Assembly (NCBI RefSeq): GCF_000763295.1
Contig: NZ_JRJE01000008.1
Location: 1 to 64,000 of the forward strand
Direction of reading: 5' to 3'
Source of the DNA: Thalassospira australica
GTDB taxonomy: Bacteria > Pseudomonadota > Alphaproteobacteria > Rhodospirillales > Thalassospiraceae
Length of the DNA stretch: 64,000 nt
The position numbers and the translations under genes were made by a program. The notes under the pieces are model-generated. The model was not told the DNA's origin. It ran no database searches and saw nothing but the letters and a program-made list of their open reading frames with translations. Shown here one piece after another: positions 5,266 through 64,000 of this stretch; the stretch's first letter is position 1; every line of letters starts with the position of its first letter.

Positions 5266-5269
5266 GACA

Positions 5270-8796: not shown

Positions 8797-8914
8797 CTTG
8801 TTGGTCTTCTCTCTCATAAGGTTCTTCAAGCAGTTTGCATCAACACGGGCAGTATATGCAGGGCACCTTAACCTGACAACTACACCCATTGTCTGGTACA
8901 GATATATCACATAT

Positions 8915-8936
8915 AAAATTATCTTTCATTTATAAA
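8915..8936. promoter_or_regulatory. Possible regulator site, AT-rich element shared with 21809-21830
   Basis: The IclR/solute-binding intergenic region holds AATTATCTTT (8917-8926) inside a 22-bp AT-rich stretch that resembles 21809-21830, in front of the ABC transporter operon of the same cluster (same 10-mer; about 17 of 22 positions agree). A common regulator, perhaps the IclR protein, could bind both. AT-rich promoters can match by chance. Confidence 0.3.
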
Positions 8937-8974
8937 TTATCACTATTAGAGTGAGGTCAGGAGGAAACATAACG

Positions 8975-12206: not shown

Positions 12207-12236
12207 TGTTCTTCCAATCCTTTCTTCAAATTCTGA

Positions 12237-12974: not shown

Positions 12975-12983
12975 AATTCCTCC

Positions 12984-14186: not shown

Positions 14187-14500
14187 TTCGACACCTCCGT
14201 GCTTTGGCCATTGGCATCCTGCAGCGCATAGGTCGCGGTATAGGCAGACCTGATGTTATGTACATGTACATGCGCCCCTGCGGGGATATCTTCGGTCGCA
14301 ATGCCAATTGGCATACCGTATTTCAGGATGCGTTCCCCACTTGCAATATCCCGGCTGGCGATTTTGTGGGCCAAGGGAATGGGATGGGAAAGCGTAATTG
14401 TCAGACCATCTGGCAGTTCCACATCAACACCTGCCTCGGCAAGGCGTCGCGCGACCAGAACATTGTCCTTTGGGTTCAACTGCAAAAAAGGTCCGTTCAT
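14183..14500 (-). CDS. UxaA-family dehydratase, small SAF-domain subunit
   Basis: 105 aa. SAF domain: [55 protein letters not shown]. In fused enzymes this is the N-terminal domain of altronate dehydratase; here it is a separate gene overlapping both neighbours by 4 bp (ATGA), consistent with translational coupling and 1:1 assembly with the large subunit. HKI and HVHN histidines may contribute to metal or substrate binding. Confidence 0.85.
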
Positions 14501-14943
14501 GGCTTCATCTCCACCATGTAAATGTGATCGGCGACCAGAACGGTTTCATCCTTCTGGTTTGTCACGACCAACCGTTCGCTGACACGTCCATACCCCGGAC
14601 GTTTTTCCATCACGTCCTTGTCGATGATTTCAACACGTGACTTGATCGTATCACCGATAAAGACCGGTTTGACGAACCGCATACGATCATACCCGTATGA
14701 AAACGCCACTGGATTGATGATGGTCGCCGTAAGACCAACACCGATGGTAAAGACCATCGTGCCATGGGCTATGCGCTGCCCGAATGGCAAGGTCTTGCAG
14801 AACTCTTGATCAAGATGATGGGGAAAGAAATCCCCGGAATGACCGGCATGCACGACAAAGTCCGTTTCGGTGATCGTACGTCCGACCGTATCGCGCCCTT
14901 CGCCAATCTCGTAATCTTCGTAATATTTGATTTGCTCAAGCAT
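14497..14943 (-). CDS. MaoC-like hotdog dehydratase
   Basis: 148 aa, full-length single MaoC domain. GDFFPHHLD (37-45) supplies the catalytic dyad D38/H43 of (R)-specific enoyl-CoA hydratases and mesaconyl-CoA-hydratase-like enzymes, followed by [13 protein letters not shown]. The expected reaction is reversible hydration of an acyl-CoA double bond. In this operon the likely partner is the CaiB/BaiF transferase at 10110-11243. Start overlaps the Gfo/Idh stop by 8 bp. Activity on a non-CoA sugar-acid intermediate cannot be excluded. Confidence 0.85.
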
Positions 14944-15991
14944 CAGGCGCCTCCTTTATTGGATGCATGGGGCGGGCAGAGCTTTCATAAGCTGCCTCTA
15001 CCAGTGCCATGGTGTGCCATGCGTCTTCGGCAGAACCGTCAAGCGCGTCATCAAGTCCGGCAGCAAAACGCTGCACTTGGGCAAAACGCCCATGGAATGC
15101 TTCGATGAACCAGTTCCCCACCAGATCAATCTGACGCCACTGGCCATCGGTATTAAGCCACAGTTCGTCCGGCTCACCTTTGGGGTAGTCAAGATTGACA
15201 CCAAGCTTCATGTAAGCAGCACCTTTGGTGCCACAAATCCGGAATTCACAGGCCTGAAATTTCCGGCCAAATCCATGGTTGTGATTGACGGAAAGATTGC
15301 AGCGCACGCTTTGGCCATAATCGAGCATGATTGAACTGCGTGTATTGGAAACCGTCGAGGATGGATGCCCGATGCTCCGCGCATGAACACCGTTCGGATT
15401 TCCCATCAAATCACGGACGAAATCCAGATAATGGATTGAATGCAAAAGAATTTCGACCCGAGGCAAATCGGCAAGAAACGCCCAAAGATGCCACGGCGTA
15501 TCAAGCGCCAACCAGGCGTCAAAATCCACGACATCGCCCAATAAACCCTTGCCAATTGCATCCTTGAGTGCAAGTGACATCGGGGCAAAGCGAAGTTGGA
15601 AATTAACTGCGGCCTTGATGTTCTTGCGACGCAGGACCGAGATAATCCGGCTTGCTTCATCCAGATCAGAACCAAGTGGTTTCTGAATCACGGCAATTGC
15701 ACCTTCGGGCAATGCTTCAAGCAGCTCGACAATTGCTGCAGGCGGGACCGCAAGATCAAAAACAACGTCTTTCTGACTGGCAGCTTGTTCTAGCGTATCA
15801 AAGGCTGACGTTCCCCAGTCGGAGGCAACCTTTTGTGCTTTATCAAGATCGGGGTCAAAAATCCCGGCAACCGGCACATTCAAATCACGATATGCCGGAA
15901 GATGGGCATCGGTCACAATCGACCCGGCCCCAAAAACCACCACAGGTGTTTTCGTTGTTGGCATTTCAATGGTCTGACGCAAATCAGTCAT
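14936..15991 (-). CDS. Gfo/Idh/MocA family oxidoreductase
   Basis: 351 aa. Rossmann start [21 protein letters not shown]-like element [10 protein letters not shown], and a C-terminal alpha/beta domain with [16 protein letters not shown], where His residues are often catalytic. NAD(P)-dependent sugar oxidation (for example sugar to lactone) is the likely role in this cluster. Start taken at ATG 15991, overlapping the RhaM-like stop by 8 bp; ATG 15964 is an alternative. Much weaker similarity to the Gfo/Idh protein at 44137-45180, so probably a different substrate. Confidence 0.82.
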
Positions 15992-16313
15992 GATGGAAAA
16001 CCTCTTCCATTTCCGCCCACCATTCGCCTTCCAGCCGGCTGTCAAGCGGGCGCTGAAGCGGCTCGCAGAATGTCCACCACCGTTGCGTTTCCGGGTCCGC
16101 GGCCATTTTCTTCATGTCGGCTTCAAAGTCGGTCCCGACATATTCGAAATAGGCAAACAGCACGTTCTCAGGCTCTTTGAGAAAGATCGAATAATTGCGG
16201 ATATTGCATTCGGAAATCTTTGCAAGGACGCCAGGCCAAACATCTGCATGAAGGCGTTTGTATTCGGCAATGGCGTCTGCACCAATTCCGATCACTTGTC
16301 CGTGGCGTGTCAT
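15984..16313 (-). CDS. RhaM-like L-rhamnose/L-fucose mutarotase
   Basis: 109 aa, the usual family size. YKRLHADVWPGVL (18-30) contains the catalytic His22 of the RhaM fold, and ADPETQRWWTFCEPLQ is the family's C-terminal signature. It interconverts alpha and beta anomers of a 6-deoxy- or related sugar, which points to an aldose, not an already oxidised acid, as the substrate of cluster 1. Start overlaps the enolase-superfamily stop (ATGA), and its stop overlaps Gfo/Idh. Confidence 0.85.
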   Translation of the reverse strand: MTRHGQVIGIGADAIAEYKRLHADVWPGVLAKISECNIRNYSIFLKEPENVLFAYFEYVGTDFEADMKKMAADPETQRWWTFCEPLQRPLDSRLEGEWWAEMEEVFHHD

Positions 16314-17428
16314 TGATTGGCCTCCGTAATTTCGAATGCGCTTCCTTCAACACTCAGTGCTGCAAGTTTGTCCTGGTCCCAGTCAATGCCCAGACCCGGC
16401 TCGGTCGGGGCTATTGCATTGCCGCCGTCCCGTGCCATTGGCGCGGCAAGATCTTCAAGCTGCGGGATATATTCAAGCCAGGGCGCGTTGGGCACTGCAC
16501 AGACAAGGCTTACATGCAGTTCCATCAGGAAATGCGGGCAGATTGCGATGTTGTGGGCCTCTGCCATATGCGCGACCTTAAGCCATGGTGTAATTCCGCC
16601 AACGCGGGCAACATCGGCCTGTACAACCGAACAGGCGTCTGCTGCGATGTAATCGGCAAACTGTCCGGGGCTATAAAGGCTTTCACCAACAGCGACCGGC
16701 ACGGTCGAGCGTGCCTGCAAACGGGTGTGCCCTGCGATGTCATCGGATGGCAATGGTTCTTCAAACCAACCGATATTCAACCGTTCAAGCATCGGGACCC
16801 GCCGGGCGGCTTCGGCCCCCGTCATGGATTGGTTGGCATCGGTCATGATCTCGTAATCATCACCCAATGCGCTTCGAACTGCTTCAAGACGTTTGGTATC
16901 CCCGGCAATGGTCGGCGTTCCGATCTTGATTTTCGACCCGGCAAAGCCCTTGGATTTGGCATCCTTCGCGTCATCAACCAGCGCTTCGGGCGACAAATGC
17001 AACCAACCACCTTCGGTCGTATACATCCGGACCGATTGCTTTGCCCCGCCGGCAAGAACATGAAGCGGAAGACCGGTTTTGCGCCCGCGCATGTCCCAAA
17101 GGGCTGTATCGATTGCTGCCAGCGCCAAGGACATAATCGGGCCGACCGCTGTTGCATGAGAACAAAACAGTAAATCACGCCAGATCGCTTCGATCCTGTC
17201 TGCGTCCTGCCCCATCAGGCGTGGCAGCAATGTAACTTGCAAAAGCGACAGGATTGCAGCACCACCGTCGCCGATGGTGTAGCTGTATCCCTGCCCTTCT
17301 GCGCCATCAGCATCGCGGATCACGACAAATATCGTTTCTTGGGATTTGAACGACTGGATCGCATCAGTGCGAACGACCTTGGGCTCAAGGTCCACCATGT
17401 ATGCCTTTGCGGATGTAATCCGTGCCAT
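16310..17428 (-). CDS. Enolase-superfamily sugar acid dehydratase (mandelate racemase type)
   Basis: 372 aa. N-terminal capping domain, then the barrel with K166/K168 (KIKIG), metal ligands D197, E223, E249, and H299 in CPHFLMELHV, matching the MR subgroup that dehydrates aldonates to 2-keto-3-deoxy acids. A strong AGGAGGTCAC ribosome site precedes ATG 17428. It sits between ABC transporter and mutarotase genes. Candidate substrates are L-fuconate, galactonate or a related aldonate; not resolvable here. A second MR-type enzyme is in cluster 3. Confidence 0.85.
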   Translation of the reverse strand: MARITSAKAYMVDLEPKVVRTDAIQSFKSQETIFVVIRDADGAEGQGYSYTIGDGGAAILSLLQVTLLPRLMGQDADRIEAIWRDLLFCSHATAVGPIMSLALAAIDTALWDMRGRKTGLPLHVLAGGAKQSVRMYTTEGGWLHLSPEALVDDAKDAKSKGFAGSKIKIGTPTIAGDTKRLEAVRSALGDDYEIMTDANQSMTGAEAARRVPMLERLNIGWFEEPLPSDDIAGHTRLQARSTVPVAVGESLYSPGQFADYIAADACSVVQADVARVGGITPWLKVAHMAEAHNIAICPHFLMELHVSLVCAVPNAPWLEYIPQLEDLAAPMARDGGNAIAPTEPGLGIDWDQDKLAALSVEGSAFEITEANQ

Positions 17429-49412: not shown

Positions 49413-50186
49413 ATGAAACGCCACGCACCCGACAAGCAGACTTCTGCTGCACAATTGGTCAACCAGACCAGCACTGATACAACACGCACCGGTCGTGCTG
49501 CGGACGAGATCGTGCGCCATATCGAAAAGAAAATTGTGTCCGGGGCATTACCAGACCGAAGCCCGCTGCCGGCCGAACGCGACCTTATGACCCAATTTGG
49601 CACCAGCCGCACGGTTGTACGAGAGGCGATTACAGCACTTTCCAATCGTGGTCTGATCGAAAACCGTCCTCGTTTCAGGCCGATTGTGCGAAAGCCGGGA
49701 TACGAAACCATCATTCGAAATGCCGACAGTATTGTTGGTCATCTCTTGTCGGAAAATCACGGTGTAAAGAACCTTTATGATACCCGTGTTTTCATAGAAC
49801 GCGCCCTGGTTAGAGAAGCCGCCCTGAATGCGCAAACTGCCGATATCCGCAGACTTAAAAGCGCACTTCTTGCCAATGAAAAGTCTATTGATGACTCAAC
49901 TCTTTTCTATGAAACAGACATTGCGTTTCACGGGGTTCTCTATGAGGTACCCAGAAACCCTATTTTCCCGGCTGTTCATCAGGCTTATTTGTCATGGCTT
50001 GCGCCGCACTGGCGTAAAATGCCGCGCTCGCCGGAACGTAACCTTGTGAACTTCAAAAGCCATCAGGCGATCGCCGAAGCCATTTTCGAACGTGACGCAG
50101 AAGCAGCCGACGAGGCCCTTACCCGTCACTTGCACGCCGCATGGGAATATGTGCGCGTAACGTTCGAGCCCGAAGAATCAGACTAG
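49413..50186 (+). CDS. GntR-family regulator, FadR subgroup
   Basis: 257 aa. Winged helix about 25-95: GALPDRSPLPAERDLMTQFGTSRTVVREAITALSNRGLIENRPRFRPIV, with the canonical SRTVVREA recognition helix; C-terminal FCD domain ending HLHAAWEYVRVTF. Divergent from the TRAP operon and adjacent to the TTTGGT-N3-ACCAAA operator, so likely its repressor. Paralogue of 51947-52690. Ribosome site weak. Confidence 0.88.
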   Translation: MKRHAPDKQTSAAQLVNQTSTDTTRTGRAADEIVRHIEKKIVSGALPDRSPLPAERDLMTQFGTSRTVVREAITALSNRGLIENRPRFRPIVRKPGYETIIRNADSIVGHLLSENHGVKNLYDTRVFIERALVREAALNAQTADIRRLKSALLANEKSIDDSTLFYETDIAFHGVLYEVPRNPIFPAVHQAYLSWLAPHWRKMPRSPERNLVNFKSHQAIAEAIFERDAEAADEALTRHLHAAWEYVRVTFEPEESD

Positions 50187-51946: not shown

Positions 51947-52690
51947 TCAAAATGTTACCCGGACATACTCCCAGGCAGCGTCCAGATGCCGTCGCAAAGC
52001 GTCTTCTGCTGCGTCCGCATCGCGGTCTTCAATTGCCTGAAAAATTGCCTTATGGCTTAGAAAGTTGACCTTGTTTCGGTCGATTGACCGGAACATTTTC
52101 CCCCAATAGGGCGCCAACCAGGATGTGTATGCCTTATGCATTGGCGGGAATATGGGGTTTTTGGCGATTTCATAAAGCAATCCGTGGAACGCGATATCTG
52201 TAGCGTAGAATGCATCCGAATCGTTAATTGCCGCCTTGTTAGCCCCCAGCGCTGCACGCAATTTTGCAATGTCTTCCTTGCGCGCGTTGCGTGCGGCATT
52301 TCTTGCCAAGCCAACTTCAACAAACAAGCGGCATTCATATAAATTACGCACGCCATCTGATTGCCCCAGCAAACGATGCACAACGCCTTCGACTGCAGAA
52401 AGCGCCGTACCATAGGTCGGGCGCTGTACCGTTGGCCGACATCGGGCTTTCGTAGCGATCAACCCGCGATACTCCAGCAACTTTAATGCACGGCTTACCG
52501 CCAAACGACCTGCATTGTGCTTCTGCATCAATTCACGCTGGGATGGCAGCATTTCACCATTTTCGATGCGGCCTTCCGCTATCTCATGCTCAATCTTGCT
52601 GGCAATACGGGCAGCCCCCTGAAGGTCAGCGGCTCTAAGACCTTCGTTTTCAAAGGCACCCTGAGTGTCATTTTCCAGTGAACCATTCAT
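51947..52690 (-). CDS. GntR-family regulator, FadR subgroup, with atypical recognition helix
   Basis: 247 aa from ATG 52690 (AGAGG site); ATG 52723 would run into the operator. The ligand domain closely matches the regulator at 49413-50186 (DIAFHGLLYE, HLDAAWEYVRVTF), but the DNA-binding part reads PSQRELMQKHNAGRLAVSRALKLLEYRGLIA, lacking the usual SRTxVREAL. Divergent from aldA. It may recognise the same palindrome with altered affinity or compete with its paralogue. Confidence 0.85.
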   Translation of the reverse strand: MNGSLENDTQGAFENEGLRAADLQGAARIASKIEHEIAEGRIENGEMLPSQRELMQKHNAGRLAVSRALKLLEYRGLIATKARCRPTVQRPTYGTALSAVEGVVHRLLGQSDGVRNLYECRLFVEVGLARNAARNARKEDIAKLRAALGANKAAINDSDAFYATDIAFHGLLYEIAKNPIFPPMHKAYTSWLAPYWGKMFRSIDRNKVNFLSHKAIFQAIEDRDADAAEDALRRHLDAAWEYVRVTF

Positions 52691-52724
52691 GCGACGTCGC
52701 CTCTTTACGATCTGTTTCGGCATT

Positions 52725-52739
52725 TTTAATACGACCAAA
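52725..52739. promoter_or_regulatory. Imperfect operator in front of the GntR gene at 51947-52690
   Basis: TTTAATACGACCAAA keeps the spacer and right half (ACGACCAAA) of the 49231-49245 operator, with the left half degenerate. Position 35 bp before the start suggests autoregulation. Confidence 0.55.
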
Positions 52740-52858: not shown

Positions 52859-54328
52859 ATGAGCCAGTTTGTTCGAACCATTAGCGGTGTTGATCACTAT
52901 GCGATGTTCATCAATGGCACCTGGACGACCGGTCACGCCACCGATGTCATAGAAGTGGAAAATCCGGCTACCGAAACGGTTTTCGCCACAATTCCAAACG
53001 GCACAGCACAAGATGCGCTTGACGCCCTGGAAGCAGCAAAGGTCGCACAAGTCGCGTGGGCACGATTACCCGCGATCGAACGGGGAAGGCTTGTTTCCCG
53101 GTTTGCCGATGCGATTGATGAAAACCGTCAACGCATGGCAAAAATCATCGTTGCCGAACAAGGAAAGCCTCTTAACCAGGCCTTTGGCGAAGTCGATGCA
53201 TGCGGCAACTTTCTCCGATATGCAGCCGAAAATGCGCGCCGGGTCGAAGGGGATATCCTGCCATCAGATGCCCCCAAGGAAGAGTTATGGATCAGACGCC
53301 TTCCGTATGGTGTCGTGGTTGGCCTTACGGCATGGAATTATCCGGCAGCCCTTGCGGCGCGTAAACTCGGCCCCGCATTGATCGCCGGCAACAGCTTTGT
53401 GTTAAAGGCGCATGAATTCACCCCTGTTTCCGGCTTGGAACTGGCGAGGATCGCACAAGAAGTCGGCATTCCGAATGGCGTCTTTAATGTCGTTACCGGT
53501 GCCGGGCGAACAGTCGGTGAGGCACTGGTAAACAGCCCGACGTCAGATTTGATCACGATGACCGGCAGTAACCGCGCCGGACGGGAAATTTATGCTGCGG
53601 GTGCGGAACAGATCAAGGTTCTGCGTCTCGAACTGGGCGGTAAAGCACCATTTATCGTAATGGCTGATGCCGATATTGATGCCGCTGTCGATAGCGCCAT
53701 CACAGCACGCTTCACCAACTGCGGCCAGATCTGCACCTGTAACGAACGGATGTATCTGCAAAAAAGCATCGCAGACGAATTCACCGAAAAGTTCATCGCA
53801 AAAGCAAAACAACTGACAATCGGGCAGCCACTTGAAAACCCCGACATGGGCCCGAAAGTCAGCGGCGATGAAATAAGCAAGATCGAACAAATCGTTGGTG
53901 ATGCCGTTTCCAACGGTGCGGAATTTCTTCTCAAAGGCGGCCCGCTTAATGACGGCAAATACGCCAAGGGGCACTGGTATGCCCCAAGTGTCTTGCGCGT
54001 TACCGATCAAAAATCCCCACTGATTGAACAGGAAATATTTGGCCCCGTCGTTCCAGTTTCGGAATTCGACACATTCGATCAGGTCTTGGCAATGGCGAAT
54101 GACACGCGCTTTGGGCTTTCCGCTTATGTCTATACCCAAAACTTCCGACACATCATGGCGTTGAGCACCGAACTGGATTTTGGGGAAATCTACGTAAACC
54201 GCACCTGCGGTGAACTTGTACAGGGCTTTCACACGGGCTGGGGTCATTCCGGCCTTGGCGGCGAAGACGGCAAGTACGGCTTCGACGGGTATCTCCGGAA
54301 AAAGGCCATGTACGTCAACTGGTCCTGA
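52859..54328 (+). CDS. AldA-like lactaldehyde/glycolaldehyde dehydrogenase
   Basis: 489 aa NAD-dependent aldehyde dehydrogenase. N160 in TAWNYP, K183, general base E259 in LELGGKAP, catalytic C292 in CGQICTCNERMY. The C-terminal half follows E. coli AldA closely (EIYVNRTCGELVQGFHTGWGHSGLGGEDGKYG). ATG 52859 has an AGGAGGAAG site; a frame from 52811 would include the operator. In deoxy-sugar breakdown AldA oxidises L-lactaldehyde to L-lactate. First gene of cluster 3. Confidence 0.88.
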   Translation: MSQFVRTISGVDHYAMFINGTWTTGHATDVIEVENPATETVFATIPNGTAQDALDALEAAKVAQVAWARLPAIERGRLVSRFADAIDENRQRMAKIIVAEQGKPLNQAFGEVDACGNFLRYAAENARRVEGDILPSDAPKEELWIRRLPYGVVVGLTAWNYPAALAARKLGPALIAGNSFVLKAHEFTPVSGLELARIAQEVGIPNGVFNVVTGAGRTVGEALVNSPTSDLITMTGSNRAGREIYAAGAEQIKVLRLELGGKAPFIVMADADIDAAVDSAITARFTNCGQICTCNERMYLQKSIADEFTEKFIAKAKQLTIGQPLENPDMGPKVSGDEISKIEQIVGDAVSNGAEFLLKGGPLNDGKYAKGHWYAPSVLRVTDQKSPLIEQEIFGPVVPVSEFDTFDQVLAMANDTRFGLSAYVYTQNFRHIMALSTELDFGEIYVNRTCGELVQGFHTGWGHSGLGGEDGKYGFDGYLRKKAMYVNWS

Positions 54329-54385: not shown

Positions 54386-55372
54386 ATGAAACGTTTGAAG
54401 ACACTGACATCAACACTTGTTCTTGCGGCCAGCCTTTCAGTGACTGCGTTAAGCACCGCATCCGCCCAAAGCCTGCCTCCGCTTGAAAAGAAAGACCAAT
54501 ACAAGGTCGGCTTCGCCCAGATGGAAAGCAACAACCCGTGGCGTATTGCTGAAACCAAAAGCTTCAAGGACACTGCAGAAGCCTGCAACTGGGACCTCAT
54601 TACGACCGATGCAGCGGGCTCTGCTGCCAAACAGGTCTCGGATGTCGACAGCATGATCGCCCAGGGCATTGATGTTCTGTTTCTGCCGCCACGCGAAGAA
54701 AAACCGCTGATCGCTGCAGTAATGCGTGCGCGAGCCGCAGGCATTCCGACATTCCTTGTGGACCGCAGCGTTGACAAGAACGTTGCAAAAGCAGGCGAAC
54801 ATTTCGTTGCCTTCATGGGGTCCGACTTCATCGAACAGGGCCGACGTGCAGCGGAATGGACGCTGGAAAACTTCAAGGGCGACAAAGGCGTAATTGTTGA
54901 ACTTGAAGGCACCACCGGATCGTCCCCTGCCAATGATCGTAAAAAGGGCTTTGACGATGTCATGGCCAAACACGACAACATGACCATTGTCGCTTCGCAA
55001 AGCGGTGATTTTGCGCGCGATCTTGGACGTCAGGTTATGGAAACGCTGTTGCAGGCGCATCCGGACGTCAACATCGTCTATGCTCATAACGATGAAATGG
55101 CGATCGGTGCAATCCAGGCACTTGAACTTGCCGGGCGCAAACCGGGCGAGGATGTGCTGATCGTCTCGATCGATGGAACGCGCGATGCGCTTCAGGCCAT
55201 CATTGATGGCAAAATGGGGGTCACCGTCGAATCCAGCCCGTTCTTTGGTCCGCTCGCGTGTGACGTGATGCAGCGTTATGCCGATGGCGAGAAAATTGAA
55301 CCATGGGTTCAGGTCAAAGATCGCATCTTCACCAAGGAAAATGCAGCCCAGTTCATTGATGAGGCCTACTAG
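54386..55372 (+). CDS. Sugar ABC transporter binding protein, YtfQ-like (furanose type)
   Basis: 328 aa. Signal peptide to about residue 27 (ASA-Q). Mature VGFAQMESNNPWRIAETKSFKDTAEACNWDLITTDA, SAAKQVSDVDSMIAQGIDVLFLPP and VELEGTTGSSPANDRKKGFDD match the YtfQ group, which binds galactofuranose/arabinofuranose. With one ATPase and two separate permeases downstream, the set has the YtfQ-YtfR-YtfT-YjfF architecture. AGGGAGGACT ribosome site. Confidence 0.85.
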   Translation: MKRLKTLTSTLVLAASLSVTALSTASAQSLPPLEKKDQYKVGFAQMESNNPWRIAETKSFKDTAEACNWDLITTDAAGSAAKQVSDVDSMIAQGIDVLFLPPREEKPLIAAVMRARAAGIPTFLVDRSVDKNVAKAGEHFVAFMGSDFIEQGRRAAEWTLENFKGDKGVIVELEGTTGSSPANDRKKGFDDVMAKHDNMTIVASQSGDFARDLGRQVMETLLQAHPDVNIVYAHNDEMAIGAIQALELAGRKPGEDVLIVSIDGTRDALQAIIDGKMGVTVESSPFFGPLACDVMQRYADGEKIEPWVQVKDRIFTKENAAQFIDEAY

Positions 55373-55419
55373 GTTTCCCTCCCTGACCTCAGGAACACAA
55401 CCTTCAATGATCTGAGCAT

Positions 55420-55452
55420 GTCGGAGGTGTACGTCACATGTGCACCTCCGAC
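55420..55452 (+). promoter_or_regulatory. Intra-operon stem-loop after the YtfQ-like gene
   Basis: GTCGGAGGTG pairs with CACCTCCGAC, extended to 15 bp with two G-U pairs and a 3-nt loop; TTTCCCGACCTTTTTT follows. Strong enough for partial termination before the ATPase gene. Confidence 0.75.
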
Positions 55453-55486
55453 TTTCCCGACCTTTTTTCTCGGAAAAGGTAATGTA

Positions 55487-57043
55487 ATGCATTCCTCACT
55501 TCTAAAGATGCACGGTATCAACAAGGCCTTCGGGGGCGTATCAGCCTTGCGCGGTGCCGAACTTGAAATAGGCCAAGGCGAAGTTCACGCCCTGATTGGG
55601 CAAAATGGCGCCGGAAAATCCACCCTGATCAAAATTCTGACGGGTGTTTATCGACGCGACAGTGGCACGGTTGATTTCAACGGCAAAGCATCGACCATTT
55701 CCAACCCGCGTGAAGCCCAGTCAAGCGGCATCAGCACCATCTATCAGGAACTTACCCTCGTACCGTTGCGCAGTGTCACCGAGAACATTGTTCTTGGGTA
55801 CGAACCCCGGCGCATTGGCGGGCTTATCGACTGGAAAGAAGCCCATCGCCGGTCACAAGAAATTCTGGCACGCTTCAACATTGATATTGATGTGAAAGCA
55901 CCACTTGGAACGTATTCAACTGCCATTCAGCAACTTGTCGCCATCGCAAGGGCGGTGTCGCTCAATGCGAAACTTGTCATCATGGACGAGCCTACATCCT
56001 CGCTTGATGACAATGAAGTGGCCGTATTGTTTTCGGTTGTGAAGTCCCTAAAAGAGTCCGGTGTATCGGTTCTTTACGTTAGCCATTTCCTTGATGAGCT
56101 GTTCAAGATATGCGACCGCGTTACCATCATGCGCGATGGGCAAACCGTCAAAAACGTCGCAATCGAGGACACCAGCAAACTTGACCTGATTGCAAACATG
56201 CTTGGCCGAAATGCCGATGACATTGAATCCGCCGGCATGACCGAATTTGCCAAAGGCGAAGCCAAGACGGGCGATGTCATCCTTAAAACCAAGAATGTCG
56301 CGACCAAACGCCTGCTGCGCAAATTCGACCTCAAAATTCATCGGGGTGAGATTGTTGGTCTTGGCGGGCTTCTTGGCTCGGGTCGTACCGAAGCTGCACG
56401 CGCTATTTTTGGTGTAGACGAACTGACACAGGGCGAAATTCATCTGGCGAAGGGGGTCCCCCAGCCTGTAACACCGAAACAGGCGATTGCCGCGGGGATC
56501 GGTTTTCTGAGCGAAGACCGTAAGTCCGAAGGGATCATTCCCGACATGTCCGTCCGCGAAAACCTGACACTGGCGCTTTTACCCAACCTCAGTCGCTTTG
56601 GTCATATTGACCACGCCCGCGAAAAAGAGCTCGTCGCATCATTCATATCAGCACTGGGCATCAAAACAGCGCATATGGATCAACCGATCCGGGAACTGTC
56701 AGGCGGTAATCAACAAAAGGTCCTTTTGGCACGCTGGCTTGTCACCAATCCTTCTTTGCTGATTTTGGATGAACCAACCCGTGGCGTCGATGTTGGCGCC
56801 AAACTGGAAATTCAGTCCATCATTCGCAGGTATGTCGACAAAGGCCTGGCTGTGCTGCTGATCTCGTCCGAGTTCGAAGAACTTGTCGAAGGTGCTGATC
56901 GAATTGTTGTGCTTCAGGACGGCATTAGCGTTTCCGAACTCAAAAACCCCGGCATTACCGAAGACACGCTGGTGCGTGCAATTGCACATCACCACACGCC
57001 AGAACAACAGGCCGTCCCCCGTCAGGAGAATGCACATGTCTGA
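55487..57043 (+). CDS. Sugar ABC transporter ATPase with two nucleotide domains, YtfR-like
   Basis: 518 aa, RbsA/YtfR class. First half: Walker A GQNGAGKST, YQELTLVP, Walker B LVIMDEPTSSLD. Second half: degenerate Walker A GLLGSGRTE, signature LSGGNQQKVLLARWL, LILDEPTRGVDVGA. Start ATG 55487; a longer frame from 55418 would begin inside the stem-loop. Stop overlaps the first permease by 8 bp. Confidence 0.92.
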   Translation: MHSSLLKMHGINKAFGGVSALRGAELEIGQGEVHALIGQNGAGKSTLIKILTGVYRRDSGTVDFNGKASTISNPREAQSSGISTIYQELTLVPLRSVTENIVLGYEPRRIGGLIDWKEAHRRSQEILARFNIDIDVKAPLGTYSTAIQQLVAIARAVSLNAKLVIMDEPTSSLDDNEVAVLFSVVKSLKESGVSVLYVSHFLDELFKICDRVTIMRDGQTVKNVAIEDTSKLDLIANMLGRNADDIESAGMTEFAKGEAKTGDVILKTKNVATKRLLRKFDLKIHRGEIVGLGGLLGSGRTEAARAIFGVDELTQGEIHLAKGVPQPVTPKQAIAAGIGFLSEDRKSEGIIPDMSVRENLTLALLPNLSRFGHIDHAREKELVASFISALGIKTAHMDQPIRELSGGNQQKVLLARWLVTNPSLLILDEPTRGVDVGAKLEIQSIIRRYVDKGLAVLLISSEFEELVEGADRIVVLQDGISVSELKNPGITEDTLVRAIAHHHTPEQQAVPRQENAHV

Positions 57044-58037
57044 CACAAATGTTGCGGCAGAAACCAAACAGACCGCACGGGAACTGATGATCCCGAAATT
57101 CAGTTTCCGGAAGCATGGCGGCCTTGTCGCCCTGTTGATTATTCTGGCGTTCAATATTGCCGTCACCCCGAACTTCCTGCAAATGCAGACGCTTTTTGTC
57201 AACATCTCGCAGGTGGCCACCATCGCGATTGTGGCTGTTGGCATGAGCCTTGTAATTGCAACTGGCGGCATTGATTTATCCGTCGGGGCAGTGATGGCCG
57301 TTGCAGGCGCCCTTGCCCCGATCATTTTCCAATCTTCGCTTGGGGTCGAATATCCGGTTGCAGGGCTCGTTCTTTCGGTTCTGATTCCCGTTCTGGTCGC
57401 GGCCTTATGCGGCCTGTTTAACGGCACGCTGGTTTGTGTGCTCAAAGTGCAGCCAATCATCGCAACCTTGATCCTTTTCATTTCGGGTCGCGGCATTGCG
57501 ATGGTGATGACGAACGGACAACTTCAAACATTTAACATGCCAAGCTTCAGCCTCTTGGGAACCGGAAAGCTTCTGGGCTTCCCGTTTCAGGGTTGGCTTG
57601 CCCTTGGTATCGCTGCCGTGGTCGCATGGATTGTCGGTAAAACCCTGTTTGGACGTTATCTGCTGGCGATCGGCGGCAACGAGAAATCCGCCCATCTTGC
57701 CGGTGCACCAGTCCGTAAAGTCAAAATCGCTGCTTATGTGATTTGTGGTTCTCTGTCTGGCATTGCCGGTCTGATTGTTGTTGCCATCAATTCGGCTTCC
57801 GATGCTGCACGTATCGGCAACTTGATGGAACTTGATGCCATCGCCGCAGCGGTTGTTGGCGGCGCCGTTCTTTCGGGGGGAAGAGCCCCGATCTTTGGCG
57901 CGGTTCTGGGCGCCATGATCATCCAGCTGGTGAAATACACATTGCTGGCAAACGGCGTGGCTGATGAGGTCGCCCTGATTGCGAAATCCATGATTATCGT
58001 CGCCGCTGTTTATATTCAGCAAAGCCGAAAGGAATAG
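57036..58037 (+). CDS. Sugar ABC transporter permease, YtfT-like
   Basis: 333 aa, 8-10 hydrophobic helices of the RbsC family. Core motif [20 protein letters not shown] and VVGGAVLSGGRAPIFGAVLGA near the C-terminus. ATG 57036 has AGGAG at 7-nt spacing; ATG 57030 is too close to it. Translationally coupled to the ATPase. Confidence 0.9.
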   Translation: MSDTNVAAETKQTARELMIPKFSFRKHGGLVALLIILAFNIAVTPNFLQMQTLFVNISQVATIAIVAVGMSLVIATGGIDLSVGAVMAVAGALAPIIFQSSLGVEYPVAGLVLSVLIPVLVAALCGLFNGTLVCVLKVQPIIATLILFISGRGIAMVMTNGQLQTFNMPSFSLLGTGKLLGFPFQGWLALGIAAVVAWIVGKTLFGRYLLAIGGNEKSAHLAGAPVRKVKIAAYVICGSLSGIAGLIVVAINSASDAARIGNLMELDAIAAAVVGGAVLSGGRAPIFGAVLGAMIIQLVKYTLLANGVADEVALIAKSMIIVAAVYIQQSRKE

Positions 58038-58041
58038 CCCG

Positions 58042-59052
58042 ATGCAATTTGACTCATCAACATTTGACCTGCGGCGTCTTTTGGGCAACTCCAGTTCAAC
58101 ACAGGCTTTGGGTGTCTGGGCGGCCTTGATTCTACTGATCGTATTTGCCCTGTTGCGCTATGACAATTTTGGCAGCGCCTATAACATCGTTTCATTTTTG
58201 AACTACAACTCGATGTTCATTCTCATCGCGCTTGGCATGTGCTTTGTCATCATGACCGGCGGCATTGATCTTTCCGTTGGGTCTGTTGCTGCATTCTCCA
58301 GTGTTATTGCCGCATTCCTGAGCGAGCACGGGCTTGAATATGCCCTACCGGGTGGAATTCTGGCTGGAATGGTGATTGGTGCAATCAACGCATTTATGAT
58401 TGTCGCAATGCGTATCCCGCCGTTCATTGCAACACTGGCCTCGATGCTTGGCGCAAAGGGGGCCGCTCTGGTCATTTCCGATGCGCAAACCGTCTCCATC
58501 TCGTGGGAAAGCAACTTTACCGCACTTGGTATGGGCAAACTGTTCGACATCATCCCATGGACGATCCTTATCGTTGCAGTTATCGCAATCATCGCCTGGG
58601 TTGTCCTGGAACATACATCCCTTGGCCGTACAGTACTGGCCGTCGGTGGTGGCCAAGAGGCATCCCAGTTGATGGGGCTAAGCGTTAAGCGCACCACATG
58701 CATCGTCTATATTTTCAGTGGTGCCTGCGCGGGCCTTGCCGGTGTGTTTCTTGCCTCGGGCTTCGGTGCTGGTCAGCCTCTGGAAGGGTTGGGATGGGAA
58801 TTGTCGGCAATTGCATCCGTGGTCGTTGGTGGAACGCTTTTGACCGGTGGCATGGGGTCTGTCCCTGCGACAATTGCGGGCGCACTTCTCCTAGGCCTTT
58901 TGTTCAATGTACTGAACTTCGAGAACGGACTTGGAATCATTAGCCTCAGTGCGCACTGGCAATCCGTCATTCGCGGGGCATTTCTGTTTGTCGTGATCCT
59001 GCTTCAGGCACGCATGGCGTCCAAAGCCGACCTTTCGTTGCGAAGAAACTGA
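58042..59052 (+). CDS. Sugar ABC transporter permease, YjfF-like
   Basis: 336 aa, RbsC family with [20 protein letters not shown] and [22 protein letters not shown]. Two non-identical permeases next to one two-domain ATPase indicate a heterodimeric channel, as in the YtfT-YjfF furanose importer. 4 bp after the first permease, AAAGGAA ribosome site. Confidence 0.9.
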
Positions 59053-59108: not shown

Positions 59109-60212
59109 ATGACAAATAAAACAACGACAATTCGCACCGTGACAGCGCAGCTATTCAACATTCCGCTGACAGAGGTTCTCACCGATGCAAAACATGGTGA
59201 TCACACACATTTCGAATTGGTGACCGTCACCATCGAACTTGATAACGGTGCTACGGGAACGGGTTACACTTATACCGGCGGACGTGGGGGACACGCCATC
59301 AAGGCAATGGTTGACCATGATCTTGCCGACTTCCTGATCGGCCGCAACGCAACGGATATCGACCACCTGTTTGACGAGATGCAGTGGCACATGCATTACG
59401 TCGCCAGAGGCGGCATCGCGTCCTTTGCCATCTCGGCGATTGATATCGCATTGTGGGATCTACGTGGTGTGATCACACAAACGCCGCTGTGGAAAATGGC
59501 CGGGGGCGTATCCAATAAATCACGGGCTTATTGTGGCGGGATTGATCTTAATTTCTCATTGGAAAAGCTTCTTCTGACGATTGAGGGATATCTGAAACGC
59601 GGGTTCAACGGTGTTAAAATCAAAGTCGGGCACAACGACCTTGGTAAAGACATTGAACGTGTTAAGGCCATACGCGAGCTGATTGGTCCTGATGTTGCCT
59701 TTATGGTCGATGCCAACTATGCCTATGATATCGATCAGGCAATTGTTGCGGCAAATCAGTTCCGCGAATTTGATCTTCTCTGGTTTGAAGAACCGATCAT
59801 TCCCGATGATTATGCCGGATATGCCCGGATCGCCCGCGAAACCGGCATTGCACTGGCGATGGGGGAAAACCTCCATACCATGCATGAGTTTGGCTATGCC
59901 TTCGAACAATCCAACCTGTCGTTTATCCAGCCTGATGCGTCAAACTGCGGCGGAATCACGGGTTTCCTGCGTGTTGCGAAAGAAGCCCGCAAACACAAAA
60001 TTCCGGTGTGCTCACATGGCATGCAGGAACTTCATGTCAGCTTGGTCGGCGCACAACCAAATGCCGGATTGATCGAAGTACACAGCTTCCCGATTGATCA
60101 ATACACCCTGCGCCCGCTGGTTGTTGAAGATCATATGGCGGTTGCACCCGATACTCCCGGAACCGGCGTTTGCTTTGACTGGGCCAAACTCAGAGACGCA
60201 AACGACGCCTGA
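59109..60212 (+). CDS. Enolase-superfamily sugar acid dehydratase (mandelate racemase type)
   Basis: 367 aa. K170/K172 (VKIKVG), metal ligands D201 (VDAN), E227 (WFEEP), E253 (MGENL), and H303 in [10 protein letters not shown], the MR-subgroup set. Start ATG 59109; the frame from 59061 lacks a good site. Dehydrates an aldonate to its 2-keto-3-deoxy form. Only distantly similar to the enzyme at 16310-17428, so a different substrate is likely. No sugar dehydrogenase or lactonase is visible here, so the imported compound may already be an acid, or these steps are encoded elsewhere. Confidence 0.87.
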
Positions 60213-60304
60213 AAAAACATCGCTCACAATCACTGCTCCTGTTCACCGGATCAATGCACAGGCTTGCCTTGCGCTGCCCGGAGCACCAGCACAAAGGACA
60301 TCAC

Positions 60305-61057
60305 ATGAAAAGATTAGAAGGAAAAACCTGCGTCGTCACCGCCGCGGGTGCGGGCATTGGCCGTGCAACGGCACTGCGTATGGCCCATGAAGGCGGCACA
60401 GTTTATGCCACTGACATTAACCCTGACACGCTTGCATCGTTAAAACACGAAGCCTCGGACAACGGGTTGTCCATCGTAACAGAAATCCTTGATGTCACCT
60501 CGGACGAAGCAATTGCAAGGTTTTCCAAACAACTTGGCAGCGTTGATGTCCTGTTTAACTGCGCAGGCTTTGTTGCCGGTGGCACCATCCTTGAGTGCAG
60601 CAACAAGGACTATGAGTTTTCCTTTGAATTGAATGTGCGTTCACTGTTTCAGATGATGAAAAACTTTCTGCCCGGAATGCTTGATCAGGGTGCAGGATCC
60701 ATCGTCAATGTTGCATCGGTGGCAGGATCAATTTCAGGGGTCCCCAACCGATTCATTTATGGTGCAACCAAGGCGGCTGTTATCGGCATGACGAAATCCG
60801 TTGCCGCTGATTTTGTTGCCAAGGGCATTCGTTGCAACGCCATCTGTCCGGGCACGATCGACAGCCCATCCTTGCAGGACCGCATGCGCGCCCAAGGAAA
60901 CTACGAAGAAGCCCGCGCTGCCTTTGTTGCACGCCAACCCATGGGACGCCTTGGCAAAGCCGAAGAAGTCGCAGCACTTGCCTGTTACCTTGCCTCTGAT
61001 GAGGCCGGCTTTACCACGGGCCAGACGCATAACATTGATGGCGGCTGGACGACCTGA
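60305..61057 (+). CDS. SDR oxidoreductase (2-keto-3-deoxy sugar acid 4-dehydrogenase-like)
   Basis: 250 aa. TAAGAGIGR (12-20), D37 in ATDIN (NAD preference), NCAG, Ser138, Y152 and K156 (YGATK). Start ATG 60305, which aligns with the paralogue at 12237-12974 (both begin MKRLEGKTC). Followed by the FAH gene, repeating the SDR-FAH pair of cluster 1. Confidence 0.87.
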   Translation: MKRLEGKTCVVTAAGAGIGRATALRMAHEGGTVYATDINPDTLASLKHEASDNGLSIVTEILDVTSDEAIARFSKQLGSVDVLFNCAGFVAGGTILECSNKDYEFSFELNVRSLFQMMKNFLPGMLDQGAGSIVNVASVAGSISGVPNRFIYGATKAAVIGMTKSVAADFVAKGIRCNAICPGTIDSPSLQDRMRAQGNYEEARAAFVARQPMGRLGKAEEVAALACYLASDEAGFTTGQTHNIDGGWTT

Positions 61058-61092
61058 TTTTCATTCAAATTGATGCACACTTGGAGACAAAA

Positions 61093-61935
61093 ATGAAACT
61101 TCTACGCTACGGCCCGATTGGGCAGGAAAAGCCCGGCATCCTTGACGCACAGAACAATATTCGTGATCTGTCAGAACATGTCGGCGACATCAATGGTGCC
61201 GCATTACAGCCAGACATCATCAAAAATTTGCAGGCACTTGATATCGATAGCCTGCCTGTTGTCACCGGCTCCCCGCGGTTGGGTGCCTGTGTTTCGGGTA
61301 CAGGAAAGTTCATTTGCATTGGCTTGAACTATTCTGACCACGCTGCAGAAACCGGCGCAACCGTTCCGCCCGAGCCGATCATCTTTATGAAGGCCACTTC
61401 GGCAATTTGCGGCCCGAATGACAATGTGGAAATTCCGCGCAATTCCGAAAAAACCGACTGGGAAGTCGAATTGGGCGTCGTGATTGGCAAAACCGCCAAA
61501 TATGTTTCCGAAGAAAACGCCATGGATCACGTTGCCGGCTATTGCCTGATCAATGATGTTTCCGAGCGCGCCTTTCAGGCAGAACGTGAAGGCCAATGGA
61601 CCAAGGGGAAATCGGCCGACACCTTTGGTCCGACGGGCCCGTGGCTTGTCACCCGTGACGAGATTTCCGATCCGCAAAACCTTGGAATGTGGCTTGATGT
61701 GAATGGTCACCGTTTCCAGGACGGCTCGACCAAAACCATGGTTTATGGCGTGCGCCATCTTGTATCCTACTTGTCACAATTCATGAGCCTGCAACCTGGT
61801 GACATTATCTCGACCGGAACCCCTCCGGGTGTTGGCCTGGGTCAGACACCGAACATTTTCCTGAAACCCGGCGATGTTATTTCGCTTGGCATTGACGGAC
61901 TGGGTGAACAACGCCAAACCGTTGTTCAGGGATAG
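61093..61935 (+). CDS. FAH-family hydrolase (2,4-diketo-3-deoxy sugar acid hydrolase-like)
   Basis: 280 aa from ATG 61093; the TTG at 61081 is not needed. Metal/catalytic segment DWEVELGVVIGKTAKYVSEE, STGTPPGVGLG near the end. About two-thirds identical by eye to 11367-12206. Splits a 2,4-diketo-3-deoxy acid into pyruvate and a hydroxyacid: lactate from a 6-deoxyhexose, glycerate from a hexose. The glycerate kinase 16 bp downstream favours glycerate. Confidence 0.87.
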   Translation: MKLLRYGPIGQEKPGILDAQNNIRDLSEHVGDINGAALQPDIIKNLQALDIDSLPVVTGSPRLGACVSGTGKFICIGLNYSDHAAETGATVPPEPIIFMKATSAICGPNDNVEIPRNSEKTDWEVELGVVIGKTAKYVSEENAMDHVAGYCLINDVSERAFQAEREGQWTKGKSADTFGPTGPWLVTRDEISDPQNLGMWLDVNGHRFQDGSTKTMVYGVRHLVSYLSQFMSLQPGDIISTGTPPGVGLGQTPNIFLKPGDVISLGIDGLGEQRQTVVQG

Positions 61936-61951
61936 GGTAAAAGGCGCAGCC

Positions 61952-63190
61952 ATGACTGATTTCCACATTCTGAAAGCCCTGTTTGATTCCGCATTGGATG
62001 CGGCTGTACCAGATGGAAAGTTCAGCAGGCTGCGCCCGCCTGCCCCAAAAGGAAAAACAATTGTTGTCGGCGCCGGAAAGGCTGCGGCGAAAATGGCTGC
62101 TGCCTTCGAGGATGACTGGCCAAATGAATGCCAAGGTCTTGTTGTCACCCGATACGGGCATAGAACGCCGACCCGACATATCGAAGTGGTCGAAGCCGCC
62201 CACCCGGTTCCCGATCAGGCCGGCGTTGATGCCGCAAGGCGAATTGCCGATCTTGTATCGTCGGCAACGAAGGATGATCTGGTGATATGCCTGATATCAG
62301 GCGGGGCATCGGCCTTGCTAAGCTTGCCGGCAACAGGCATTACCCTGAAGGAAAAGCAGGACATCAATCAGGCACTGCTGCGCTCAGGCGCGCCGATTGA
62401 TCAAATGAATACAGTTCGGAAATCGCTTTCCGCCATAAAGGGGGGGCGATTGGCTGAAATGGCATTTCCTGCCCAATTGGTGACTTATCTGATTTCCGAT
62501 GTGCCAGGGGATGCACCTTCTGCCATTGGGTCTGGCCCAACCATTTCAGAATCCAGCAACCCTGAAGATGCGCTTGCAATTCTAAAGCGTTGGGATATTC
62601 CCGTGTCAGATCGCCTAAAGCAGGCAATCTTGCAAAACCCGACAAAAGCATCCTCTGCCCCGGCGACCGTGCATATGTTGGCGACACCTATGATGTCACT
62701 TGAAGCCGCATCAAACAAAGCGCGCAGCCTTGGAATAACGCCCTATGTTCTTGGCGACGCCATCGAAGGCGAGGCACGCGAAGCAGGGCGTATTTTGGGC
62801 GGGATCGTGCGCTCAATCCTGATGCATGACCAGCCTTTCACATCTCCTTGTGTATTGCTGTCGGGTGGCGAAACCACGGTCACAGTAAAGGGGAATGGGC
62901 GGGGTGGTAGAAATGCAGAATTTCTATTGTCCCTTTTTGAAACAGTCGGCGATGAACCACGCGTTGCCGCAATTGCTTGCGATACAGACGGTATTGATGG
63001 CATTGAAGACAATGCAGGTGCCTGGTTTGATGGCACACTTAAAACCTTAACCCGCAAACGAAACCTTGATGCCGGTTCCTATCTTGCGAATAATGACGCG
63101 TGGACGTTTTTCCATCAACTTGATCGCTTGGTACATACAGGTCCGACCTTGACCAATGTGAATGATTTTCGTGCAATTCTGATAAAGTAA
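61952..63190 (+). CDS. Glycerate 2-kinase (GckA/TtuD type, MOFRL family)
   Basis: 412 aa. N-terminal domain with VVGAGKAAAKMAAAFE, EAAHPVPDQAG, LISGGASALLSLPATGITL, NTVRKSLSAIKGGRLA and SDVPGDAPSAIGSGPT; C-terminal MOFRL domain LLSGGETTVTVKGNGRGGRNAEFLL and AIACDTDGIDGIEDNAGAW. Converts D-glycerate and ATP to 2-phosphoglycerate. ATG 61952, 16 bp after FAH. The only kinase in cluster 3, so it is the likely entry to central metabolism. Confidence 0.92.
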   Translation: MTDFHILKALFDSALDAAVPDGKFSRLRPPAPKGKTIVVGAGKAAAKMAAAFEDDWPNECQGLVVTRYGHRTPTRHIEVVEAAHPVPDQAGVDAARRIADLVSSATKDDLVICLISGGASALLSLPATGITLKEKQDINQALLRSGAPIDQMNTVRKSLSAIKGGRLAEMAFPAQLVTYLISDVPGDAPSAIGSGPTISESSNPEDALAILKRWDIPVSDRLKQAILQNPTKASSAPATVHMLATPMMSLEAASNKARSLGITPYVLGDAIEGEAREAGRILGGIVRSILMHDQPFTSPCVLLSGGETTVTVKGNGRGGRNAEFLLSLFETVGDEPRVAAIACDTDGIDGIEDNAGAWFDGTLKTLTRKRNLDAGSYLANNDAWTFFHQLDRLVHTGPTLTNVNDFRAILIK

Positions 63191-63200
63191 GGCGCCTCTG

Positions 63201-64000
63201 ATGACCCATACCCCACCTGAAATCGCCTATGGTCGTGGCTTCATCTCCTTGAGCCTGCCTGAAAATGCCCGCACAACGGTTATTCGCAAGGCAGAGCTCG
63301 CCAAACTTCCAGACAATCACGCAGCCATTCGCAACGCACTTGAAAATCCGGTGGAGGCCGCCCCGCTGTCGGAACTCGCCAAAAACCGCAAAAGCGCGTG
63401 CATCCTGATCTGCGATATTACCCGGCCGGTCCCAAACAAACTTTTCTTGCGCCCGATGATCGAAACCATGCTGGCAGCAGGAATTCCACAAAGCGAAATC
63501 ACGGTACTGGTCGCCACCGGCCTTCACCGCCCCAATCTGGGCGAAGAACTTGATGAATTGCTGGGTGACCCGTGGGTTTTGGAAAACGTGCGGGTCGAAA
63601 ACCATTATGCCCGCAATGAAGATGACTTGGTTGATCTTGGATCAACTCCGACCCGTGATGTTCCGGTTAAGCTGAACAAGTATTTGGTGAATGCCGATCT
63701 CAGGATCGCCACCGGGTTGGTGGAACCCCACTTCATGGCCGGTTGGTCCGGCGGTCGCAAGGTGGTTGCCCCCGGTGTTGCCGGTCACGAAACAATCCGG
63801 ACATTCCATTCTGCACGCTTCATGGAAGATCCCCTTGCTGTGCAGTGTAACCTTGCGGGAAATCCTCTTCACGAAGAGCAACTCGAAATCGTCCGCAAGC
63901 TGGGCGAGATTTATGCGCTTAACACCGTTCTGGATGAAGACCGCGACCTTGTTCACGTTACATTTGGTGAAATCATCGCCAGCCACCTTGCTGCGGTCAG
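63201..64000 (+). CDS. LarA-like nickel-dependent 2-hydroxyacid racemase/epimerase (partial)
   Basis: 266 codons open to the window end, no stop; truncated by the window, not broken. D72 and R75 (CDITRP), His in TGLHRP, EPHFMAGWSGGRKVVAPG with the His and the Lys that carries the nickel-pincer cofactor in LarA, and TFHSARF with a further His. All core LarA residues visible so far are conserved. LarA homologues racemise lactate, malate or other 2-hydroxyacids, or epimerise aldonates at C2. Follows the glycerate kinase by 10 bp; the cofactor genes larB/C/E are not in view. Confidence 0.85.
   Translation, partial: MTHTPPEIAYGRGFISLSLPENARTTVIRKAELAKLPDNHAAIRNALENPVEAAPLSELAKNRKSACILICDITRPVPNKLFLRPMIETMLAAGIPQSEITVLVATGLHRPNLGEELDELLGDPWVLENVRVENHYARNEDDLVDLGSTPTRDVPVKLNKYLVNADLRIATGLVEPHFMAGWSGGRKVVAPGVAGHETIRTFHSARFMEDPLAVQCNLAGNPLHEEQLEIVRKLGEIYALNTVLDEDRDLVHVTFGEIIASHLAAV

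Follow-up and report, generated by a model that had tools for sequence, protein, structure and literature searches.

3,6-Anhydro-L-galactose (AHG) is one of the main sugars of agar, and that it cannot be fermented has been called an obstacle to the use of agarose (PMC9706016). In the canonical pathway, as given for Aquimarina ERC-38, AHG dehydrogenase and 3,6-anhydro-L-galactonate cycloisomerase (ACI) are followed by enzymes of EC 1.1.1.389 and EC 1.1.1.127, 2-keto-3-deoxygluconate (KDG) kinase, and 2-keto-3-deoxy-6-phosphogluconate (KDPG) aldolase (PMC10163077). The first two steps are also described in Vibrio EJY3 and Streptomyces (PMC9706016, PMC11219438). They turn AHG into 2-keto-3-deoxygalactonate (KDGal), stated in the review PMC11219438 to be the L form (L-KDGal). 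For KDGal, the abstract of that review names an aldolase route and a route by a kinase and an aldolase, and agarolysis papers (e.g., PMC10163077) describe the inversion of KDGal to KDG. We examined a stretch of 64,000 nucleotides from Thalassospira australica (the window: positions 1 to 64,000 of C8, a 169-kb contig of the 4.26-Mb genome), at the end of which lies a run of genes that is probably an AHG catabolic operon with a different, hydrolytic lower route, in which a nickel-pincer racemase of the LarA family would racemize glycerate ahead of a glycerate kinase.

Two further bodies of work bear on such a route. In the FAH routes treated in PMC13406643, a 2,4-diketo-3-deoxy acid is hydrolyzed, and the enzyme XCC4067 also accepts 2-keto-3-deoxy-L-galactonate. 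LarA enzymes racemize glycerate in vitro, LarAH43 being the best of them and somewhat better on glycerate than on lactate; the physiological meaning of this activity was left to be determined (PMC11770544). The operon comprises the following genes, for which the start codons are our choice:

52859..54328, + strand: aldehyde dehydrogenase, putative AHG dehydrogenase (best PDB match, 6J75)
54386..55372, + strand: periplasmic sugar-binding protein of a CUT2-type ABC importer (Pfam Peripla_BP_4, 169 bits)
55418..57043, + strand: double ATPase of the importer (open reading frame and reading of the sequence)
57036..58037, + strand: importer permease 1 (Pfam BPD_transp_2, 120 bits)
58042..59052, + strand: importer permease 2 (Pfam BPD_transp_2, 128 bits)
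59109..60212, + strand: putative ACI, EC 5.5.1.25 (MR/enolase superfamily; closest to 5XD7)
60305..61057, + strand: SDR, putative 2-keto-3-deoxy-L-galactonate C4 dehydrogenase (Pfam adh_short_C2)
61093..61935, + strand: FAH-family diketo-acid hydrolase, putatively yielding pyruvate and L-glycerate (best PDB match, 8GSR)
61952..63190, + strand: glycerate 2-kinase GckA (DUF4147 and MOFRL; Pfam, 273 and 124 bits)
63201..64499, + strand, running past the window end at 64000: larA, nickel-pincer 2-hydroxyacid racemase, putative glycerate racemase (Lar_N, 197 bits; LarA_C, 68 bits)
64496..65719, + strand: larC, a single open reading frame with LarC1 and LarC2 domains (above the NCBIfam cutoffs)
65722..66507, + strand: larE (above the NCBIfam cutoff)
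66504..67160, + strand: larB (above the NCBIfam cutoff)

In the proposed route, the importer would bring in AHG, the aldehyde dehydrogenase would convert it to 3,6-anhydro-L-galactonate, and ACI would open this acid to L-KDGal. The published route inverts L-KDGal at C5 to give KDG; here, the SDR would oxidize it at C4 instead, and the FAH-family enzyme would split the resulting 2,4-diketo acid hydrolytically into pyruvate and L-glycerate. LarB, LarC, and LarE of the operon would make the nickel-pincer cofactor for LarA, which would racemize L- to D-glycerate, and the glycerate 2-kinase would turn the D form into 2-phosphoglycerate. We infer all substrates and products of this scheme, including the oxidation at C4 and the substrate of LarA, and the D-glycerate specificity of GckA is assumed. 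Gene content, order, and spacing, closest relatives, catalytic residues, the cofactor gene set, and the replacement of the canonical enzyme pair were observed directly.

An earlier reading made from the DNA letters alone (the sequence-only reading) had placed a dehydratase, an SDR, an FAH enzyme, a glycerate 2-kinase, and a LarA-type enzyme in this order in one operon. Open reading frames and domain scans confirmed all five genes as intact and contiguous on the + strand. The gaps from the MR/enolase gene through SDR, FAH, and gckA to larA are 92, 35, 16, and 10 bp; larA and larC overlap by 4 bp, larC and larE are 2 bp apart, and larE and larB overlap by 4 bp. The run extends upstream to the importer (54386-59052) and the aldehyde dehydrogenase (52859-54328), with no gap above 57 bp upstream of the cycloisomerase gene. 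Because the spacing is tight, we infer a single transcript from the aldehyde dehydrogenase through larB. Scans for promoters and terminators did no better than shuffled sequence (14 versus 13.1 and 19 versus 20.2, respectively). The gene set is larger than first described.

The first two enzymes point to the sugar. The cycloisomerase matched 5XD7 with 525 bits and 218 of 357 positions identical (61%), the next distinct protein being 2OVL with 329 bits. The KxK, Asp/Glu/Glu, Asp, and His positions of the active site are present by motif (K170, K172, D201, E227, E253, D276, and H303), and no counterpart was matched for the eighth residue of the published SCO3480 active-site list (Glu307). The "dehydratase" of the sequence-only reading is thus closest to a cycloisomerase and not to a hexonate dehydratase; a talarate/galactarate-type dehydratase identity was considered and set aside in favor of ACI (230 bits against a cutoff of 500). 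The aldehyde dehydrogenase matched 6J75 best, by a narrow margin (493 bits; runner-up 3K2W, 482 bits), scored 502.7 bits against NCBIfam NF007497 "aldehyde dehydrogenase" (cutoff, 500), and carries the catalytic N160/E258/C292 motifs. In a table of PMC10163077, 6J75 is 3,6-anhydro-alpha-L-galactose dehydrogenase (EC 1.2.1.92) and 5XD7 is the cycloisomerase. On these matches, the sugar of the operon is likely AHG from agar, yielding L-KDGal, and the L-configured hexonate needed by the sequence-only reading would be at hand.

To place the lower route, we compared loci of ACI relatives. Relatives at 59 to 70% identity occurred in the order (4 genomes, 5 loci), the class (7), and the phylum (8 more), drawn from overlapping samples of 317, 385, and 398 genomes. 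Apart from our own, 20 ACI loci had at least 59% identity, and we read 19 of them (all but the one in G1046), taking in ∼10 kb to the left and right as far as the contig reached; the contig of L108 is 6 kb long, and the ACI gene lies 3 to 6 kb from a contig end in L109 and L116. Seven further hits had 44 to 48% identity, of which three were fetched (L119 to L121) and none was counted among the 19. An MDR dehydrogenase paired with a KduD-type SDR was found in 8 of the 19 loci, a count that includes L106, the source of both queries. The KduD of L106 scored 322 bits against the KduD model (cutoff, 339). The pair corresponds to the enzymes of EC 1.1.1.389 and EC 1.1.1.127 given for Aquimarina (PMC10163077). 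In L107, it lies ∼6 kb from ACI, and in L136 an MDR match (45%) occurs but no KduD. In three of the eight pair-bearing loci (L140 to L142), an aldehyde dehydrogenase 47% identical to that of the operon follows ACI, MDR, and KduD.

The MDR and KduD pair is absent around the operon, where SDR and FAH, glycerate 2-kinase, and larACEB stand in its place. The best MDR match in the whole genome was 32% identical; for KduD, the search covered the surroundings of the operon only. L114, from another genome of the same class, likewise has ACI, SDR, and FAH in a row, with the SDR 62% identical to ours and the FAH 68% over the matched part. The same region (L114:5722-12843) also encodes a TRAP transporter and a tartronate-semialdehyde-reductase-like protein, with no LarA and no kinase in the stretch read; it perhaps represents another way of using L-glycerate.

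The FAH-family enzyme is closest to 8GSR, L-2,4-diketo-3-deoxyrhamnonate hydrolase (330 bits), and scored 434 bits against NCBIfam NF053535 (2,4-didehydro-3-deoxy-L-rhamnonate hydrolase), which is under the cutoff of 500, so that we do not file it as a member, although it would act in a like manner. The SDR matched 8XWK and 8Y11 best (303 to 304 bits), entries labeled merely "SDR family oxidoreductase." By analogy with the FAH routes of PMC13406643, hydrolysis of 2,4-diketo-3-deoxy-L-galactonate would release pyruvate and the C4-to-C6 fragment, and since AHG gives rise to the L form of KDGal (PMC11219438), this fragment would be L-glycerate. It is important to note that, by our carbon mapping, pyruvate would receive C1 to C3 in both the hydrolytic and the KDPG route, and C4 would end up at the carboxyl end of the other three-carbon half, so 13C tracing alone would not separate them. 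The window also contains a second SDR and FAH pair (11367-17428, − strand; 58.6% and 71% identical to those of the operon), which stands with a galactarate-dehydratase-like protein and a talarate/galactarate-dehydratase-like MR enzyme, adjoins what by reading is a CUT1 ABC importer, and is probably part of another diketo-hydrolase sugar-acid route.

GckA matched 2B8N, "glycerate kinase, putative," with 291 bits and fell below the cutoffs of both NCBIfam models that match it. The genome has two other MOFRL matches, and all three lie in different clusters; one of these clusters holds two dehydrogenases that resemble the tartrate/isopropylmalate type by reading. The sequence-only reading had called for the rest of larA and for larB, larC, and larE: larA is complete, and larC, larE, and larB follow directly downstream in the operon. 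The two catalytic His residues, the cofactor Lys, the Ni-binding His, and Arg75, which mark the nickel-pincer superfamily, are all present in LarA, and R75, H109, H177, K187, H203, and Q363 occur in 81 of 81 clade sequences. The residues after the second His are Phe (81 of 81) and Met (80 of 81). LarA scored 360.5 bits against the lactate racemase equivalog NF033504, below its cutoff of 460. The closest PDB entry is 9EID, "broad-substrate spectrum lactate racemase A" (326 bits), which we take to be LarAIp. By alignment, Q363 occupies the position of T359 in LarA1, where LarAH43 also has Gln, a position singled out by the authors of that study (PMC11770544). Q363 and the other checked residues would indicate at most competence on glycerate, not specialization. 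In its genomic setting, the preferred reading of LarA is that of a glycerate racemase feeding the kinase.

The link between gckA and larA seems to extend to a congener. Among 29 genomes of the genus, larA was found in two, our own and G283 (locus L004), where larACEB is flanked by the folD region and a transporter. The 20 kb read around it contained no ACI, FAH, or intact gckA, and G283 was not among the genomes with an ACI match. In our own genome, the two sequences flanking the lar site of G283 are found on another contig, separated by 1.4 kb, and lar genes matched on C8 only. In L004, 107 bp directly upstream of larA (8877-8983) align with the 3′ end of the operon gckA, with 75 of 115 columns identical and a score of 56.5. 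The best of 1,000 dinucleotide shuffles reached 37.5, the best of 1,000 random pieces of the window reached 46, and four other gckA ends (two paralogous and those of L022 and L034) scored 20 to 30.5 against this relic. The gaps of the alignment shift the frame, and the distance to the larA start is 17 bp in both G283 and the operon. It thus seems that gckA and larA were neighbors before the two species diverged and that the kinase gene decayed in G283, where the remaining route is missing. The relic supports a functional link between the two genes without proving the substrate. That the lar genes are mere passengers was set aside given this relic and the 10-bp spacing.

We further examined 80 LarA loci at 68 to 93% identity, counting neighbors by tblastn (E of 1e-15 and 40% identity) in the stretch read; several are short contigs, so that absences there are weak. 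FAH matches at 70 to 72% occurred in 10 of the 80 and SDR matches at 57 to 73% in 14, whereas no locus had an ACI match of at least 40%. A reductase of the tartronate semialdehyde/3-hydroxyisobutyrate family was present in 16. In L022 and L034, gckA directly follows the larB of larACEB on the same strand. In a separate sample of the class, 19 of 385 genomes, our own included, had LarA at E of 1e-150 or better; among the 18 others, gckA occurred in one (L187; LarA 55% identical, opposite strand), and none had an FAH match. The LarA clade thus occurs with diketo-hydrolase modules more than once, although this is not the usual case. Beside a GlcD-like oxidase, the natural substrate to assume is lactate, and beside gckA, it is glycerate. 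With regard to conservation of the order FAH-GckA-LarA, raised by the sequence-only reading, the full set was seen in this genome only, and the adjacency of larACEB and gckA recurs in L022 and L034.

Several observations weigh against reading the operon as a hydrolytic AHG route. None of the 19 other ACI loci held LarA or GckA in the stretch read, and the full arrangement was found in this genome only. FAH, LarA, and GckA all fell under NCBIfam equivalog cutoffs. No convincing agarase came to light, though in weak tests: a genome search for GH16 gave one 29-position match (23.4 bits; cutoff, 22), which we did not count as an agarase, and GH50, GH86, and GH117 were not searched; a search with PF17992 gave no match, but its control also matched nowhere, and it is hence uninformative on agarase. 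The genome has two matches to the KDPG aldolase family, so the canonical route could still run from genes at other sites. The rival explanation would then be that AHG is used but that genes outside the operon convert L-KDGal to KDG and KDPG, the FAH, kinase, and lar genes serving another compound on a shared transcript. Such a route is published (PMC10163077), and MDR-family enzymes (the best 32% identical) occur in the genome alongside the two aldolase-family genes, but where 8 of 19 related loci carry the MDR and KduD pair, the operon, like L114, carries SDR and FAH. We consider this explanation unlikely.

The remaining counterpoints concern the LarA clade. LarAIp works best on lactate and 2-hydroxybutyrate and next best on L-glycerate (PMC11851776), although in our alignment Gln stands at the T359 position in this enzyme as well, so that Q363 would show competence at most. 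The checked LarA residues are nearly invariant across the 81 clade sequences. In the 80 LarA loci, gckA (3 loci) was outnumbered by a GlcD-like FAD oxidase (12 loci), which fits D-lactate, and the FAH and SDR of the operon are close to those of the oxidase-bearing modules. The clade may consist mainly of lactate racemases. Several Rhizobiales modules among L018 to L041 (e.g., L041:1226-18839) hold aldo-keto reductases, an amidohydrolase, and, by reading, a LIV-type importer together with LarA, larCEB, FAH, and SDR, as well as a tartronate semialdehyde-family reductase and the GlcD-like FAD oxidase, and are candidates for an L-fucose-like route with a lactate racemase step.

These modules lend weight to a second rival, the alternative already named by the sequence-only reading, in which a 6-deoxy-L-sugar (or a mixture) would be degraded, FAH would release L-lactate, LarA would be a lactate racemase supplying a D-lactate-oxidizing enzyme, and the kinase would serve otherwise. 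The closest relative of the FAH, a 2,4-diketo-3-deoxyrhamnonate hydrolase, and the lactate preference of the closest solved LarA (PMC11851776) also speak for it. But ACI and the dehydrogenase fit AHG, a sugar with oxygen at C6, no GlcD-like match (E of 1e-12) was found in the 36 kb around the operon, and gckA ends 10 bp before larA in a pair that seems to predate the split from the congener. This alternative misfits AHG and leaves the glycerate kinase unexplained, and we find it unlikely here, although the Rhizobiales loci do seem to be of that kind. A third rival, that LarA is a C2 epimerase of the aldonate, acting on the sugar acid rather than the three-carbon product, is highly improbable and was set aside: some LarA homologues epimerize hexonates (PMC11770544), but LarA scored 27 bits with the hexonate-epimerase model and 360 bits with that for lactate racemase, and the closest structure is a small-substrate racemase.

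On balance, we favor the view that the operon encodes an apparently undescribed hydrolytic AHG pathway with LarA as an in vivo glycerate racemase; more broadly, the LarA clade would act as a stereochemical adaptor behind diketo-hydrolase routes, turning an L-2-hydroxyacid into its D form for a D-lactate oxidase in Rhizobiales and for the D-glycerate kinase here. The earlier proposal of L-glycerate, LarA, and kinase in series is thereby supported in outline, with comparative genomics as the sole line of support.

One further gene, divergent from the operon, is likely its regulator:

51947..52738, − strand: GntR/FCD-type regulator (NanR subfamily model, 184 bits, below the cutoff of 260)

Relatives of this protein (45 to 51% identity) lie upstream of the cycloisomerase gene on the opposite strand in 4 of the 19 related loci (L106, L107, L110, and L137), at ∼3 kb from it in L110. 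By reading, two related GntR/FCD-type regulators (51% identical; 49413-50186 and 51947-52738) flank a GMC-type oxidoreductase that adjoins the operon. On the other side, after larB, contig C8 holds on the opposite strand (67506-70143 and beyond; L003:3507-9857, − strand) an FCD regulator and a D-apionate lactonase (NF049900, 845 bits, above the cutoff), then a Gfo/Idh dehydrogenase and CUT2-type importer genes, probably an apiose cluster. Elsewhere in the window, 1960-7592 (− strand) resembles a dnaE2-imuB-imuA mutagenesis cassette by reading.

In the open-licence literature, we found no hydrolytic AHG route to glycerate and pyruvate, none with a glycerate-racemase role in the parts of the papers on AHG and racemases, and no relevant match among those listed for larA beside glycerate kinase; glycerate racemization was represented by the in vitro LarA study only. 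Where the papers show its form, diketo-3-deoxy-L-galactonate is the 2,5-diketo compound (e.g., in PMC10163077). The claim that no described pathway has this combination of enzymes therefore stands for this literature. If true, the hydrolytic route would bypass the aldolase, the kinase-and-aldolase, and the KDG-inversion routes, and the operon would offer a concrete, testable role for glycerate racemization by LarA, with all cofactor genes in one gene run.

Compared with LarAH43 and LarAIp, the operon LarA shares the family, the catalytic residues, and Gln at the T359 position; what those studies report are in vitro activities, with LarAIp preferring lactate, whereas here the gene neighborhood supplies a candidate role (PMC11770544, PMC11851776). 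The L-rhamnose and L-fucose diketo-hydrolase routes (LRA6, C785_RS20550, and XCC4067; PMC13406643) have in common with the operon an SDR oxidation followed by FAH hydrolysis of a 2,4-diketo-3-deoxy acid, but they release L-lactate from 6-deoxy sugars, whereas the hexonate of the operon would release L-glycerate, which needs inversion. A study known by its title through PMC13406643 follows the same carbon logic for an acid derived from L-galactose, and that title names no racemase or kinase step. With the canonical AHG pathway, the operon would share the first two enzymes and the L-KDGal intermediate, and it has SDR, FAH, LarA, and glycerate 2-kinase in place of the C5 dehydrogenase/reductase pair. 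The canonical pathway enters central metabolism at glyceraldehyde 3-phosphate, whereas the route proposed here would enter at 2-phosphoglycerate.

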